Positions 40,723-47,694 of a stretch of 64,000 bases of DNA are shown piece after piece. Each line of letters opens with the position of its first letter. Positions within the stretch are counted from its first letter, which is position 1. The DNA comes from an uncultured Armatimonadota bacterium. GTDB lineage: Bacteria > Armatimonadota > Fimbriimonadia > Fimbriimonadales > Fimbriimonadaceae. The stretch lies in contig CAIYMO010000036.1 of the NCBI GenBank assembly GCA_903927345.1, positions 1 through 64,000 on the forward strand, written 5' to 3'. Made by a program: the position numbers and the translations under genes. The notes beneath the pieces are model-generated. The model was not told the origin of the DNA and did no database searches. It saw only the letters and a list, made by a program, of their open reading frames with translations.

Positions 40723-42348
40723 ATGATCTCCGCGCTAATCTGCTCTGTTGCCCTGAACCAAAAGGCTCCCGTAGTGGACTACTCAGTCCCGTTGGGAGCC
40801 TCTACACAGTTCCACGAAGTAGTTAATCAGGTGAAGTCCAAGCTTTTCGCAAAGGATTTCACCGGTGCAGCGGCGCTTGCGAAGGTGTTGCCTCAATCGG
40901 TGGTCACATACCGATTCAACTTCTCAAAGGTGCCAAAAGAGCTTCGAGAATCCTTCCAGCAGTCCGCATCCTTTGCGATCGATTCGTGGCAGAAGAATCT
41001 CGACGGGAAGGCCACCTTAGTCGAGTCTAAGTCAGGTGTCCCGAACATCCTGTTCTCGTTCGAGCAGGTTCTGCAAAAGACGGCTGACACTGGGGAGATC
41101 CCAGGCGTTGCCCTTTTCTACACAATCTCGACTAAAGAACCACGTGTCGAAGCAGTTATCGGACTCAAGCGCACGGCTGAACTGCTCGAAACAAAGTCAA
41201 GCGAGGTCTTCGACGAGGTCATGTTTGGCATCGGTAGCTATTTGGGGCTCGCCCCTTCGCCAATTCCCGGTTCAGCCATGGGGCGGGTGAACGGTCGAAT
41301 GCTCGGACTCAATCTTGTTAATCGGGAGGAATCTGCGGTTGCTGAAGCAAACCTGCGTCTCGCAAAGGCGCTTCGCGTCGCGGCCCTCGCCAAGGTAGCG
41401 GTCAAACCTTCAAGGCCACGGCTAACCGTATCGCAAAGTGCGTTCGACTTTAGACCTGCGTTCCAAGGAGATACTGTTTACGAATTCCTGACGGTCACAA
41501 ATCGAGGAGACGCCCCTTTGCAAATGCGAGCGTTTGGCGACTGTTCCTGTATCTCCGGCGACGTTCTGGACGTTTTGAAGCCTGGCGAGTCTACTGCCCT
41601 CAAAGCGCGCTATCGCACGGACGAGCTCGTCGGCAACATCGAGCACAACGTGGTTCTGATCTCCAATGATGCGGAACAGCCGTCACTCAAGTTCCCTGCC
41701 AAGATCCATGTAGAGCCCCGCGCAGAAGTTATCTTTCCAAACTCTGACACAGTCGTCCTCGACAGCGGGGAAAAGACTTTGACGTTCTATATTCATTCTT
41801 CAGAGCCCGTTGAGTGGGAATTGACGGCCGCCCAGCTCATCCCACTGAACAGTAAGGTCCTCTATGAGCGATTCGAAGGAGACGTTGCAGATTGGAGAAG
41901 CGGCGGTCAAATCCGACACGTCAAGGGATACAAAGTCACCGCAGACTTCACAACACTTCCGGAAAATCAAGTTTTTGGGCGCATTCTGATGACCGTGTAT
42001 GCGACCTTAACCAATAAAAACTACAAGCTCGCTCGTGCTCAAATTTATGTTCAGAAGGGTATTGTTGCCCAGCCTGAGCGACTCTACTTAGGCGCTCCCA
42101 CCGGAGCCGCGGATACCAACTTCGTGCTGATGCGCCCTGGTAAACCCTTTAACATCCTAAGCGTTTCATCGGATTCCAAATACGTTACAGCCCAAGTGAA
42201 ATCGAACAAACTCAAATCGGAGTACACCCTCTCGGTTAAGTACGACGGAAAGGCTCCAGAACACCGCCTCGACACACAGATAAGGATCACAACGGATGAT
42301 CCTAAGCAACCGATAATCCTGATCCCGCTTGCCACCGCACAGTCATGA
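40723..42348 (+). CDS. pseudo-matrixin/DUF1573 secreted protein
   Basis: 541 residues with a weak signal at the N-terminus. Residues ~50-210 look like a matrixin-type metzincin (FAIDSWQKNLDGKATLVES, VPNILFSFEQVL), but the zinc-binding helix HE-x-x-H-x-x-G-x-x-H is replaced by FGIGSYLGLAP, so every His and the Glu are lost. Residues ~235-330 are a DUF1573 Ig-like domain (LTVTNRGDAPLQMRAFGDCSC, LKPGESTALKARYRT), and the rest reads as further beta-sandwich domains. Follows prfB by 8 bases and overlaps the tetraheme cytochrome gene by ATGA. Confidence 0.75.
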   Translation: MISALICSVALNQKAPVVDYSVPLGASTQFHEVVNQVKSKLFAKDFTGAAALAKVLPQSVVTYRFNFSKVPKELRESFQQSASFAIDSWQKNLDGKATLVESKSGVPNILFSFEQVLQKTADTGEIPGVALFYTISTKEPRVEAVIGLKRTAELLETKSSEVFDEVMFGIGSYLGLAPSPIPGSAMGRVNGRMLGLNLVNREESAVAEANLRLAKALRVAALAKVAVKPSRPRLTVSQSAFDFRPAFQGDTVYEFLTVTNRGDAPLQMRAFGDCSCISGDVLDVLKPGESTALKARYRTDELVGNIEHNVVLISNDAEQPSLKFPAKIHVEPRAEVIFPNSDTVVLDSGEKTLTFYIHSSEPVEWELTAAQLIPLNSKVLYERFEGDVADWRSGGQIRHVKGYKVTADFTTLPENQVFGRILMTVYATLTNKNYKLARAQIYVQKGIVAQPERLYLGAPTGAADTNFVLMRPGKPFNILSVSSDSKYVTAQVKSNKLKSEYTLSVKYDGKAPEHRLDTQIRITTDDPKQPIILIPLATAQS

Positions 42349-43454
42349 AATGGCTTCCCCATGTCTTTGGCGCACTACTTTTCGGAATCGGCCTGAGTGT
42401 TCAGCCTGCCCAGGATGTTTACGTGATCGTGACCGGAGGAGCAAGGGGAAACCTTGCTCCCTGCGGATGCACCAAGCCAATGACAGGAGGCCTGAAGCGT
42501 ATGGCGAACATGGTGCGAGAACTCAAAGTTCGGCACGGTGCGCTCTGGATTGATACGGGCGACATTACAAATGCTCCGGGAAGACAGTCGGAACTGAAAG
42601 TCGAGGCTTACGCGCAAGTCATGGGTGAACTTGGTGTTGATGCATTTGCAATCAGTCCTTCGGAGCGCGCCCTCGGTGAAGGGGTCATCCTTTCAATGAA
42701 GTCGCTTGCCAAAGGTGTCGCACTTGATCCATCGGGACAGGACTCTGTTACGCTACGAAGTATCCGCATTGCCGTCGAAATCCCAGGCTTCCCACACCCG
42801 GAGGCTGATGTTGTCATCACCCGGGATCCTCAACATCGAGAGCCAAACATCGTGTCGGTCTTCCCTTCCGGCGGGACTTCCCAAGCGGATCGGTTCCAAG
42901 TTTCGCCGGGTGAGGCATTGCGCGGGTTGGTACTGCTCCGCTTTCGAGACGGAGTCTTGGCGGATTCAAAAGCGATCCCGCTCGAGCCACGAGTCGCAGA
43001 AGACCCACAGGCCACACGAGCATACAACAGCTATCTCAACCGAATCAAAACTGAGCGACTAGCGGAAAAGGTTCTGAAGACCGACCAAGGACGATTTGCT
43101 GGATCAACAAGCTGCACAAATTGCCACCCATCAGCGACGAAGGTTCACATGAAGACCGCCCATGCGCACGCCATGTCAACACTAAAGACGGTCAAGCACG
43201 AACTGGATCCAGACTGTATCAGCTGCCACTCGGTCGGTTTTGATGCGCGAGGGGGATACTCACCTCTTCAGCCCAAAAAGTTTGCCGAAGTGGGTTGCGA
43301 ATCTTGCCATGGTGCGGCGGCAAGCCATGTGGCTCAACCGAAGGTCTACAAGCTCCCGAAAGTGGGTGAGAAAAAGTGCCTGACGTGCCATACCACACGA
43401 ACGAGCCCAGGCTTCACTTTTCTGAAGAACTGGACAAAAATCAAACATCGTTAG
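42345..43454 (+). CDS. UshA-like domain fused to tetraheme cytochrome c
   Basis: 369 residues with a signal peptide. Residues ~28-235 resemble the metallophosphatase-like domain found before multiheme cytochromes (GARGNLAPCGCTKPMTGGLK, ALWIDTGDI), lacking most phosphatase metal ligands. The last ~115 residues contain four c-type heme sites: CTNCH, CISCH, CESCH and CLTCH, with extra His (KTAHAHAM) as likely axial ligands, like cytochrome c554-type proteins. It acts in the periplasm or outer membrane in electron transfer and needs a cytochrome c maturation system. It shares ATGA with the pseudo-matrixin gene. Confidence 0.85.
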   Translation: MKWLPHVFGALLFGIGLSVQPAQDVYVIVTGGARGNLAPCGCTKPMTGGLKRMANMVRELKVRHGALWIDTGDITNAPGRQSELKVEAYAQVMGELGVDAFAISPSERALGEGVILSMKSLAKGVALDPSGQDSVTLRSIRIAVEIPGFPHPEADVVITRDPQHREPNIVSVFPSGGTSQADRFQVSPGEALRGLVLLRFRDGVLADSKAIPLEPRVAEDPQATRAYNSYLNRIKTERLAEKVLKTDQGRFAGSTSCTNCHPSATKVHMKTAHAHAMSTLKTVKHELDPDCISCHSVGFDARGGYSPLQPKKFAEVGCESCHGAAASHVAQPKVYKLPKVGEKKCLTCHTTRTSPGFTFLKNWTKIKHR

Positions 43455-43654
43455 TGGGCAAAGTGTGGATAACTTAACAAAATTTGGTGAATATATTTTC
43501 AGCGATTTTGCCTGAAATAACGAGCAAACGTGAGATTAAACACATCAGTTGCCATAAAAAATGACGCCTCTGGGGGTTGCGTTCTTAACGTCCAACATCT
43601 AGACTAGAGGAGGAAATCGTAAGGTTTCCGTCAATCAATTTTCGGCTCACTCTC
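43455..43654 (+). promoter_or_regulatory. AT-rich region with a perfect DnaA box
   Basis: The minus-strand sequence TTATCCACA (43464-43472) is a perfect DnaA box. A weaker match TTAAACACA (7 of 9) lies at 43536-43544. AT-rich runs (AATATATTTTC) follow the first box. TTGCGT-N17-TAGACT (43578-43605) could be a promoter for the next gene, followed directly by AGGAGG (43608-43613), which has no standard start codon at proper distance. Too few boxes for a confident origin. Confidence 0.55.
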
Positions 43655-44638
43655 GTGGCAATTCTTTCGGACAACTGGCAACTAACTCAAGAGAAAACTC
43701 GCACACTTAGCGAGGTGTTTTCGTGCACACGAAAACCATCTTTTTCTGCCCTCGCGCCACTACCGAGTAATGTTGAAGCAATCGAGGCAGGCCTTCTGTT
43801 TAGCCGAGGGATGCAGCAGTTTGTGAGCATCTGTGGACCAAGTGGAGTCGGCAAGAGCGAGATTCTATCGGCCACCCATGCTCACTGTCACGGAGCGGCC
43901 CTCATGAGCGCCGAGCACTACCTTAGCGTTCGCACTCGCATAAGCCCTCGCCAACCCCTCATTATTGACGACTGTCAAGAACTCCTGGGAAAGCCTCGCC
44001 GGATGGTCATGTTTCGAAGCGCCCTCGACCGACGCGTCCGAGGGGGTTGCCCAACGATGCTAAGCTTCACATGCGATCAGCCACCAACCAATGGGTTTGT
44101 TGTGATTCCACAGAGCAAGAGATGGGCGAAGTACGCAATTGAAGCGCCCAACATCGACGAACGACTGCAACTGATCAACCATGTTGCCAAGCAGGAGCAA
44201 ATGGAGATCGGTCCTGTTCTTGGTCAGATCCTAGCTAAATGGCTCGGAGGGACAGGAAGAGGCATACTCGGAGCGCTCCATCGCCTGAAGCTCGAACAGA
44301 CAAGTTGGACAAACTCCCGAGACTCGCTGCGAGCTTGCGGAATTCTTGACGCCTACCTTTCGGGCAATCCGCAGTGGGACTTGCGCCACCGCACTCTTAG
44401 AACAGCTTTGGCTTGCGAATCACTTTTCCCAGATATCAATCCTCAGGAAATGGCCTGCTACACCCTCATCCGCACCGCGAGTCTTTGCGAGCATTCTGTG
44501 GCGCAGTATATGGATCAAACTCCTGGTCACTGCTATGTACGCGCAAACCAGTTTGCTGAACTGAGGAGAACCACCCCGTCTGTCGCACAGGCACACCACC
44601 AGTTTGTCGAGCTGGTGCTTGATAGACTCCTTCGCTAA
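43655..44638 (+). CDS. divergent DnaA-like AAA+ protein
   Basis: 327 residues from GTG at 43655; the frame is open upstream to the strong AGGAGG, so the true start may differ. Walker A is GPSGVGKS (residues 61-68) and Walker B LIIDD (102-106). MLSFTCDQPP, IEAPNIDERLQLI and GRGILGALHRLK correspond to DnaA domain III motifs. The C-terminal ~70 residues align with DnaA domain IV (QEMACYTLIR for RQIAMYLAR), but the DNA-binding RDHTTV signature is changed to TPGHCYV. Domains I and II are absent. It is a DnaA/Hda-type paralogue, possibly a replication regulator; a perfect DnaA box lies upstream. Confidence 0.72.
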   Translation: MAILSDNWQLTQEKTRTLSEVFSCTRKPSFSALAPLPSNVEAIEAGLLFSRGMQQFVSICGPSGVGKSEILSATHAHCHGAALMSAEHYLSVRTRISPRQPLIIDDCQELLGKPRRMVMFRSALDRRVRGGCPTMLSFTCDQPPTNGFVVIPQSKRWAKYAIEAPNIDERLQLINHVAKQEQMEIGPVLGQILAKWLGGTGRGILGALHRLKLEQTSWTNSRDSLRACGILDAYLSGNPQWDLRHRTLRTALACESLFPDINPQEMACYTLIRTASLCEHSVAQYMDQTPGHCYVRANQFAELRRTTPSVAQAHHQFVELVLDRLLR

Positions 44639-44704: not shown

Positions 44705-45988
44705 ATGACAAATCCCGGCGGACTGCCGATCATCCGAGTGTGGTTGCAACCTGAGCACCAGGTCTCGACAGCGAAGCTGTTGCTGACTGGTCACCGGTTG
44801 CCTGCCATCGGCGTGGTTGGTCCTCAGAGGAAGCTGATTGGTCTGGCAACCCAAGCTTCTCTGCACGGTGCGCCTGAGGATGCGGAACTTGCCTCCTACC
44901 TTGTCGAGGCTGGCGATCCAATCTCAATCTATACGACAGTACGTGATGCCGCCAAACTGATTCAGGATTCTGATCATGATTTTCTGCCAGTGATACATGA
45001 AGGGGCTTTTCAAGGCATTCTTTCAGCGAAATCGCTCCTTGGGCGCCTACGACAATCCTTTGACCCGATGACTCAGCTCCCATGGAGCGATGCGCTTCGA
45101 GATTGGGGTGCTGAGCAACTGAGCCTGTCCAATGAGATCGCCATTATCTTTGTGGATCTGAACAAATTTGGGGTTTTCAACAAGCAATTCGGGCATGTCA
45201 TCGGCGATAAGGTTCTGCAAGGCGTTGTTGCAGAGCTCAAAGTCGCGATCGATCCTATTACCGATCTATTGGTTCGCTATGGCGGTGACGAATTCGCGAT
45301 CGGCACTCTGAGAGATCGCGACGATGCGGATGTTTTCGTCAACCAATTGCGTCTGCTCGGCAAGGACCTCATGGTTGACGGTGTTCCCGCTCCAATTAGC
45401 TTCTCGGTAGGCATTCATGGTGGTCGCAGGTCCAAGGTGAGAAACGACATTCACGTCCAGGCGAACCTCGACAATTTGGTTAACCTTGCGAGCCAAGACT
45501 GCATCTCGTCTAAGAATGAGTCCGGAGCCGCTGATGAGAAGGCTTCCCTGGCCGAGACAACTGAGCCGACGCCATCTCACCATCAAAGCAGTACCAATAG
45601 CGAACAGGCCGACTATAACCAAACGTTGCCACCAGGATATGCTGTTGTGGAGACCGTTCAGGCAGATGAGGACCCAAACAGCCTGACCTATGCGGTTGTA
45701 CGTTCCAGCGGTGGGCTGTCAGTGGGAACATCTCTCAAGATGGGACGGTCGTTAGCCGAATCAATCGCCATCGCAACAGCAAAGGCCCTCGAAAAGGCAT
45801 ACCCGGAGTCATCCATAACAATTGACAGTCTTATCGTTACTAAGGCCGGGAGTACCGAACTCATCTCGTTGGAGACTACCGTGGTTCGAGACGGTTTCCA
45901 GCGATCAGTAAAGGCCGAAGTCGAAGCAAACGATGACCTCGGGGAATCTGTTGCAAGTGGAGTAATTTCCGCCTTCTTCGCCGAATAG
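44705..45988 (+). CDS. CBS-GGDEF diguanylate cyclase-like protein with novel C-terminal domain
   Basis: 427 residues, no membrane segment. Residues ~10-120 form two CBS motifs that bind adenine nucleotides. The GGDEF domain has FVDLNKFGVFNKQFGHVIGD and an intact YGGDEF (193-197), so c-di-GMP synthesis is possible; the inhibitory RxxD site is lost (PITD). A Ser/Thr/Glu-rich linker (~265-305) leads to ~115 residues that I do not recognise (VVRSSGGLSVGTSLKMG, LAESIAIATAKALEKAYPES). The domain order suggests control of c-di-GMP by cellular energy. Followed by the Mpa-like ATPase 26 bases later. Confidence 0.8.
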   Translation: MTNPGGLPIIRVWLQPEHQVSTAKLLLTGHRLPAIGVVGPQRKLIGLATQASLHGAPEDAELASYLVEAGDPISIYTTVRDAAKLIQDSDHDFLPVIHEGAFQGILSAKSLLGRLRQSFDPMTQLPWSDALRDWGAEQLSLSNEIAIIFVDLNKFGVFNKQFGHVIGDKVLQGVVAELKVAIDPITDLLVRYGGDEFAIGTLRDRDDADVFVNQLRLLGKDLMVDGVPAPISFSVGIHGGRRSKVRNDIHVQANLDNLVNLASQDCISSKNESGAADEKASLAETTEPTPSHHQSSTNSEQADYNQTLPPGYAVVETVQADEDPNSLTYAVVRSSGGLSVGTSLKMGRSLAESIAIATAKALEKAYPESSITIDSLIVTKAGSTELISLETTVVRDGFQRSVKAEVEANDDLGESVASGVISAFFAE

Positions 45989-46014: not shown

Positions 46015-47694
46015 ATGCCTCGCGAATCGCTCGAAATGCTCTCTCTGATTGAGGTTGAGCTACCTTCCGATCAACCGAAGCTTCGCGCCTACGTCAATGC
46101 ACTTAAGCAGACTCTTGAGGCCGAGGAGCGTGACGCGATTGCGAGTGCAGAAGAACTCGCCCAATACCGAGCCGCCTACGAAAAGCTAACTCAGCCAGCA
46201 AACAGAATTGGCGTTTTCCTCAAATGGGTGGAATCAGAAGACTCAACAACGCTCGCCTTCGTTTTGTTAGGGGATAGCGAGTACGTCGTGACTTGGGACC
46301 CGACGATTGATCCTGAGAAGCTCCTACTCGGTACCAGGGTCCGGCTGAACGAAGCGTACGCCATAGTTGGCCTTGCCCCAAACGCCGATTTGGGTTCAAT
46401 CGCGAAGATCTCTGAGGTTTTAGACAAGAACCGCATCCAAATCGGTGGTGATCAGCCCGGCGAGGGGACTCGACTGGTCTTTCGAGCAGAAGAGCTGGCA
46501 GAAGCGACTCTACAACCAGGTGATCGTATTCGGCTAGACCCCACCGGACGATTTGCCGTTGAGCTCCTCCAGAAGTCGGAGAACAAGGATTACTTCGTTG
46601 AGGAAGTGCCCCCTATCTCATGGGATCAGGTCGGCGGCCAGGAAGAGGCAATTAGACTGATTCGCGAAACCATCGAACAACCCCTCCTGCATCCTGAGGT
46701 CTTCGAAGCCTACGGAAAGAAACCAATAAAAGGTGTGCTCCTCTATGGCCCCCCTGGTTGTGGGAAGACGCTTCTCGGGAAGGCTACCGCTCACAACTTG
46801 GCGAAGGAGTACAGCAAGAAGCTCGGAAGAGAGGTGAAGGAGTGCTTCCTCAGCATCTCTGGTCCCAAGATTTTGAATATGTGGGTCGGTGAGACCGAGC
46901 GCATGGTCCGAGAGATCTTCGCAATCGCTCGAGCCCGAGCGAAAGAGGGGCAACTCGTCTTTATCTTTATGGATGAAGCTGAGTCGCTGCTTCGCACACG
47001 TTCATCAGGGCGCAATTTCTCGATGAGCAATACAGTCGTCCCCCAGTTTTGCGCTGAACTTGATGGACTCGTTGAGTTAGAAAACGTCGTCTTGATGCTC
47101 ACGTCGAATAGGCCGGACTACATTGACCCAGCAATTCTTCGCCCCGGTCGTATTGATCGCAAGGTTAAAGTTGAACGTCCATCGAAGGAAGCGTGCCGGC
47201 AGATCCTCAACATCTATCTTCCGGCAACCCTCCCCTTCGATCCTGAGCTCCTCGCAGAAAGCGACGGAGACTCCGACCGTGCAAGAAGCACACTGGTTGA
47301 GCTCGCTACAGAAGAAATATGGCGAAAAACTCCCGCTGCGGAAATCGCCACGATGTACTTGAGAGATGGAAACCAAGAGGTGTTGTACCGAAGTAATTTT
47401 GTGTCAGGAGCTATCTTGGAAAGCATCATTGATCGCTCCAAAGAGAGTGCCATACGCCGCTCTTTGGAGGACCTTAATGCCCAGACTGGCCTAAACACGG
47501 GAGATATCATTGATGCTATTGACAAAGAATTTCTTGAGAATGATATATTGCCGCAGTCAGATCAGGTGGAAGATTGGGTTCAATTACTAGATATGAAATC
47601 TGATAACTGTGTTGCTGTCCGATCTCGTCGAAAAAATCAAGATAAATTCGGGACGAAATCTTACGGAACACGCAGTTTGAAAAGCATTTTCTGA
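46015..47694 (+). CDS. Mpa/ARC-like proteasomal-type AAA+ ATPase
   Basis: 559 residues. The order matches Mpa/ARC: N-terminal coiled coil (~25-65), OB-like barrels (~66-195), then one AAA+ module with Walker A GPPGCGKT (245-252), Walker B IFMDEAE (Asp320/Glu321), VGETERMVREIF and the arginine-finger region ILRPGRIDRKVKVERP. Mpa unfolds Pup-tagged proteins for the 20S proteasome. The C-terminus here ends SLKSIF and lacks the GQYL/HbYX tail that docks to the proteasome; the last ~60 residues are Lys/Arg/Asp-rich and unlike Mpa. No pup, dop, pafA or prcBA genes are adjacent, so the partner is unknown. Confidence 0.85.
   Translation: MPRESLEMLSLIEVELPSDQPKLRAYVNALKQTLEAEERDAIASAEELAQYRAAYEKLTQPANRIGVFLKWVESEDSTTLAFVLLGDSEYVVTWDPTIDPEKLLLGTRVRLNEAYAIVGLAPNADLGSIAKISEVLDKNRIQIGGDQPGEGTRLVFRAEELAEATLQPGDRIRLDPTGRFAVELLQKSENKDYFVEEVPPISWDQVGGQEEAIRLIRETIEQPLLHPEVFEAYGKKPIKGVLLYGPPGCGKTLLGKATAHNLAKEYSKKLGREVKECFLSISGPKILNMWVGETERMVREIFAIARARAKEGQLVFIFMDEAESLLRTRSSGRNFSMSNTVVPQFCAELDGLVELENVVLMLTSNRPDYIDPAILRPGRIDRKVKVERPSKEACRQILNIYLPATLPFDPELLAESDGDSDRARSTLVELATEEIWRKTPAAEIATMYLRDGNQEVLYRSNFVSGAILESIIDRSKESAIRRSLEDLNAQTGLNTGDIIDAIDKEFLENDILPQSDQVEDWVQLLDMKSDNCVAVRSRRKNQDKFGTKSYGTRSLKSIF

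Follow-up and report, generated by a model that had tools for sequence, protein, structure and literature searches.

A DnaA-like AAA+ paralogue behind a conserved DnaA-type box: a candidate Hda-like regulator of DnaA

The stretch of DNA analysed here (the window, 64 kb) carries on its plus strand, at 43655..44638, a gene for a DnaA-like paralogue (DLP) of 327 residues that begins with a GTG codon. The gene upstream (42345-43454) encodes a multihaem cytochrome c554-like protein and is itself preceded by genes for a DUF1573 protein and prfB, a block that is syntenic in family f1. Downstream on the same strand lie the genes for a CBS-GGDEF protein (44705..45988), a conserved neighbour of DLP, and a proteasomal AAA ATPase of the Mpa/ARC-like type (46015..47694), a neighbour whose conservation extends across the order. 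From DLP onwards the intergenic distances are 66 and 26 bp, which suggests that the three genes may form one operon. The ATPase scores 442 bits against TIGR03689 (cut-off 504.75) and has no obvious HbYX-type motif at its C-terminus; genes for proteasome-family subunits lie on other contigs of the genome.

The DLP reading frame is real, with homologues at 23-82% identity, and comparison with its nearest relative (dN = 0.13, dS saturated) indicates strong purifying selection. A pseudogene was rejected on these substitution values and on the intactness of the gene in nearly all relatives, and a phage or plasmid replication protein was rejected because DLP is single copy, chromosomal and syntenic in its relatives. 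The viral contigs searched contained no relative of DLP, and the PHROG match was only weak. Upstream, the frame closes at 43589, leaving no room for DnaA domains I-II, whose absence had been claimed in the initial annotation; the N-terminal stretch ahead of the AAA+ core is about 25 residues long.

A single-sequence Pfam search of DLP returned a P-loop as its sole match and did not detect Bac_DnaA_C. In NCBIfam, weak matches were found to Hda (1.9e-5; TIGR03420, 24.3 bits against a cut-off of 194.8) and to DnaA (1.2e-4; TIGR00362, 21.3 bits against 343.9), both far under the membership scores. All 27 aligned homologues match both TIGR00362 (best 9.8e-16) and TIGR03420 (best 1.8e-13), and a profile of the same 27 finds T. 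maritima DnaA at 3e-15 over domains III-IV, the DnaA proteins of B. subtilis and A. aeolicus, and then Hda. Aligned with hhalign against the DnaA of its own genome, the DLP family covers domains III and IV (E=2.8e-12). The C-terminal part alone matches the C-terminal parts of DnaA with E=6e-8 and a score of 45 (30 column-shuffled control profiles scored no higher than 17.5), and this profile-profile comparison backs the domain IV outline noticed earlier despite the missing Pfam match.

The AlphaFold2 model of DLP (pLDDT 64.5) was built from a shallow alignment of 3 sequences, because the contig scan yielded just two clear full-length relatives. It resembles DnaA domain III (Z 14.0 and 13.1) and Hda (11.4) more closely than it does other AAA+ proteins (about 10). 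In a model of the isolated C-terminal domain, checked for a domain IV-like helix-turn-helix (HTH), the helices are predicted at low confidence in the same succession as in DnaA domain IV, the HTH turn being the lowest-confidence part, and Foldseek returned no match. In a tree, the DLP family forms its own clade, set off by a long stem (2.17) with support of 100/100, and with this placement a recent duplication of the lineage's own DnaA was not adopted as its origin. From these comparisons of sequence profiles, DLP is a DnaA-superfamily AAA+ protein that shares common ancestry with DnaA domains III and IV.

The residues of the DLP family were mapped onto E. coli DnaA numbering. The roles that we attach to single domain IV residues are those we take them to have in DnaA. 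The roles of domain III residues follow PMC5742627, and DnaA-box binding is by a basic loop together with the HTH (PMC5835720). The domain III motifs reported in the initial annotation are indeed retained in DLP. Walker A (GPSGVGKS, 43835..43858, plus strand) has K67, which is K in 41 and R in 1 of 42 homologues, Walker B (PLIIDD, 43955..43972, plus strand) follows it, and sensor 2 (GTGRGILGALHRL, 44249..44287, plus strand) has R202, an arginine in 31/42. In the family as a whole, the Walker A lysine and Walker B aspartate are kept and sensor-2 R334 is kept in 19/22. The equivalent of the B-motif R245 is R or K in 22/22, and a basic ERRVRxG stretch follows Walker B.

Just before Walker B, the DnaA insertion is missing. 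The distance between Walker A and B is 37-44 residues in DLP (mean 42), compared with 57 in every DnaA and 46 in E. coli Hda, and the initiator-specific insertion, with its ssDNA and AID-1 residues, is gone: the H-motif V211 column is empty and R227 is replaced. The box VII equivalent (KRWAK, 44117..44131, plus strand) contains the invariant W157, the R281 column is empty, and the R285 (arginine-finger) column is mostly P or S. An arginine outside the R285 column lies within the five residues before W157 in 29/42 homologues and is lacking there in 13/42; in DLP, K155/R156 beside W157 are possible counterparts of the arginine finger with which Hda, together with the clamp, stimulates hydrolysis of DnaA-ATP. 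Near the N-terminus, LSEVF (43706..43720, plus strand) aligns with the Hda clamp-binding segment QLSLPL, with the glutamine missing. A conserved β-clamp-binding motif is absent from the DLP homologues, the window protein having TLSEVF. Two relatives (L113, L070) have SQLSLPI, an Hda-like clamp motif, and most others have LSxVL or unrelated sequence; with only these two carrying it, the motif was rejected as a family feature.

The C-terminal domain IV homologue (44297..44635, plus strand) has, by hhalign and the residue table, both the basic loop and RDHTTV replaced. The R399 position is empty, R407 and RDHTT are lost and H434 is P; in DLP itself TPGHCYV (residues 289-295) stands in place of RDHTTV, as first noted from the translation. 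DLP therefore lacks the residues by which DnaA recognises its box. On average the domain carries a net charge of -0.7 in DLP and +3.1 in DnaA. E279 is invariant and P290, Y294 and W241-D242 are conserved.

The genome has one canonical dnaA, found elsewhere and separate from DLP in the search that the initial annotation had called for, and nothing over the Hda cut-off. Almost all genomes of family f1 have one DLP gene each, and families f3 and f5 have it too. Families f2 and f4, which belong to the same order, lack the gene, as do a genus with 1.5-Mb genomes and the rest of the phylum sample, where the search matches canonical DnaA only; DLP is conserved order-wide, though not universal. The lineage concerned is probably Armatimonadota (Fimbriimonadales-like). 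The usual gene order, DLP, CBS-GGDEF and proteasomal ATPase, recurs across f1 and f5 and is kept despite changed upstream genes (L091, L093, L094), and some relatives have DLP without the ATPase within the fetched stretch. One family member (L069) lies on a GTDB contig titled 'Methanoregulaceae archaeon SJ84', a title that looks mislabelled.

A perfect DnaA-type box, TTATCCACA on the minus strand (TGTGGATAA in gene direction), lies at 43464..43472, 190 bp before the DLP start codon and just past the stop codon of the upstream cytochrome gene. Read by eye, a probable σ70-type promoter (TTGCGT, 17 bp, TAGACT) lies at 43577..43605 on the plus strand, and TTGACG/ACAAT-like pairs stand at a similar place in many relatives. 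The 200 bp upstream of DLP have 40.5% GC compared with 53.8% for the window. Both the box and the AT-rich region thus agree with the initial annotation. Its second, 7/9 match (TTAAACACA, 43536) was rejected as a box: shuffling the region gives 0.7 matches of this quality by chance, and the site lacks conservation. The perfect box is the only TTATNCACA in the 64-kb window, and at least one occurred in 49/100 shuffles, which is the level of chance. The box is significant because it is conserved in relatives, not because of its count in the window. Its absence from close relatives, which the initial annotation had named as a refuting result, was not observed: TGTGGATAA has the same position and sequence in both closest relatives. 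The 200-bp region contains only three invariant blocks of at least 8 bp, namely the bases past the upstream stop codon, an 11-bp block TGTGGATAACT around the box, and a 17-bp block GGTTGCGTTCTTAACGT in the probable promoter that is fully conserved in three species. Across 41 homologous upstream regions, 17 have a box with at most one mismatch in gene direction (1.1 expected, maximum of 4 in 100 shuffle sets), and opposite-strand and reversed controls are at chance level. In several relatives the box is repeated, with two or three copies at intervals of 10-12 bp.

There is no genome-wide enrichment of TTATNCACA (29 against 27 for the reversed control), and conservation was therefore used as the criterion. 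The exact 9-mer occurs at 14 places in the genome and is kept in both relatives at only three, the promoters of DLP and of two ftsZ genes, ftsZ-A and ftsZ-B. Clustered perfect DnaA-type boxes lie upstream of both ftsZ genes (C30:6536-6555 and C4:8941-8987; L046, L033), those of ftsZ-B being inverted and 19 bp apart. Among genomes of the genus and family, boxes with at most one mismatch were found at ftsZ-A in 10/14 and at ftsZ-B in 9/13, with about 0.7 expected in each case. Further TTATCCACA sites are shared with just one of the two close relatives (C13:69213, which precedes an acetolactate-synthase-like gene, and C24:23784). There is no box at the genome's own dnaA, and four relatives assembled in one contig have no oriC-like TTWTCCACA cluster; with coarse GC skew in one complete relative also uninformative, oriC was not located by these means. 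Among the genes that Caulobacter DnaA activates directly are hdaA and ftsZ (PMC3193534).

We infer from the conserved box that DLP is probably under DnaA control. The reading that we tentatively prefer, and consider quite possible though somewhat short of probable, is that DLP is an Hda-like AAA+ regulator of canonical DnaA that would act by AAA+-to-AAA+ contact and would not itself initiate replication. Binding of DnaA to the candidate boxes would set the synthesis of both DLP and FtsZ; DLP could then join DnaA-ATP assemblies as a defective subunit and stop, cap or inactivate them, giving a DnaA-DLP feedback loop like that of DnaA and HdaA in Caulobacter. This reading is the best because the target pair is the same as in Caulobacter and the paralogue has Hda's losses. 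In its favour are the presence of a canonical dnaA with no Hda over the cut-off, the missing initiator-specific insertion, as in Hda, and a box that is kept in close relatives and common to both ftsZ promoters. Against it, there is no conserved clamp motif, the arginine-finger column is P or S, domain IV is retained (Hda has none), the closest conserved neighbours, CBS-GGDEF and the proteasomal ATPase, point elsewhere, the gene is missing from f2, f4 and the reduced-genome genus, and the scores are far below the family cut-offs. DLP is not a formal Hda, given the absent clamp motif, the extra domain and the score far below the cut-off. The initial annotation had offered an Hda-like regulator under DnaA control or an initiator with changed specificity, and the former is the better-supported half, with dnaA elsewhere, the insertion lost and the box conserved and shared with ftsZ. 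The latter, a second initiator with altered origin specificity, accounts for the homology to domains III and IV and is nevertheless highly improbable: DLP has neither domains I-II nor the H-motif V211, AID-1 R227, box VII R281 and basic-loop R399, and a canonical dnaA is present.

The retained C-terminal domain also fits a DnaA-derived AAA+ transcription or nucleoid factor, whose domain IV would read other DNA through its P-G/A-x-x-Y helix and whose assembly on DNA would be controlled by ATP. That the domain is kept, with E279 invariant and P290, Y294 and W241-D242 conserved, argues that it is under selection for something; the predicted helix order matches an HTH, and the R/K at the R245 position in 22/22 and ERRVRxG after Walker B are further points for such a factor. 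We nonetheless regard it as rather unlikely, as the domain is neutral to acidic (-0.7 against +3.1 for DnaA) and has lost the basic loop, and the model is least confident at the HTH turn, with no Foldseek match for the isolated domain. The neighbouring genes point in another direction, to a DnaA-derived DLP that would serve the proteasomal ATPase or c-di-GMP signalling as adaptor or regulator and whose link to replication would be purely historical. The order of the three genes is kept in two families while upstream genes changed, and the short gaps suggest one operon; however, synteny alone is weak because the unrelated prfB and cytochrome genes are syntenic too in f1, and as the fetched stretch of some relatives has DLP but no ATPase, this role appears distinctly unlikely.

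The box itself may be read differently, a view that can be combined with any of the above for the protein: MraZ or another factor, rather than DnaA, would read the TGTGGATAA element, leaving DLP outside DnaA control. A 10-12-bp spacing is known for MraZ sites, and at ftsZ-A and some of the DLP promoters the element recurs in direct repeats with a period of 10-12 bp. A search of 14 genomes found mraZ in every one, and AGTGG repeats occur in its own promoter; in two mraZ promoters (L237, L238) these recur every 10-11 bp and are probably MraZ autoregulatory sites. Since no oriC with the box was found, there being no TTWTCCACA cluster in the four one-contig relatives and no box at the genome's own dnaA, MraZ could be the reader of the repeats. 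Against this, the full 9-mer including ATAA is conserved, whereas the genome's own mraZ repeats share AGTGG alone; the ftsZ-B boxes are inverted, 19 bp apart; and the genome's own DnaA keeps RDHT(S), the DnaA proteins of the phylum keeping the basic-loop arginine. On balance we consider a reader other than DnaA unlikely.

RIDA, in which a DnaA paralogue inactivates DnaA, is a mechanism described for Proteobacteria, and to our knowledge replication control is unstudied in the present lineages. DnaA sites of the same kind before DLP and both ftsZ genes suggest a hitherto undescribed regulator that may couple replication to the cell cycle. It is possible, though doubtful as a whole, that DLP represents an undescribed family of DnaA paralogues from one non-proteobacterial order that works in a RIDA-like loop, in which DnaA would turn on its own regulator and two ftsZ genes. 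The core of these proteins would be of the Hda type, and their domain IV would no longer read DnaA boxes but might bind DnaA or other DNA. If so, the limiting of initiation through a DnaA paralogue would be older than thought or would have arisen twice, as a promoter wired like that of hdaA and a paralogue with the same losses would occur in another lineage, and DLP would connect replication with two FtsZs and perhaps with the bacterial proteasome. DLP is apparently undescribed, the literature searched, whose coverage excludes most subscription journals, containing no report of a protein of this kind.

Among known systems, the DnaC/IstB helicase-loader group shares the AAA+ fold and weak sequence matches with DLP, but DnaA and Hda score better in both sequence and structure and the C-terminal domain of DLP is DnaA-like. 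DnaA itself has in common with DLP the AAA+ domain III, with SNxxA, Walker A and B and sensor 2, and homology in domain IV; DLP differs in lacking domains I-II, the initiator-specific insertion and the basic loop, in the replacement of RDHTTV and in its long separate clade. Hda/HdaA of Proteobacteria is, like DLP, a DnaA-derived AAA+ protein without domains I-II, with a similar short N-terminal extension, a shortened Walker A-B region without the initiator insertion, and, as in Caulobacter, a promoter with a DnaA-type box and control shared with ftsZ (PMC3193534). In contrast to Hda/HdaA, DLP lacks the QLSLPL clamp motif, keeps a domain IV-like C-terminus (about 110 further residues), and belongs to another lineage, where it is linked to GGDEF and proteasomal ATPase genes.
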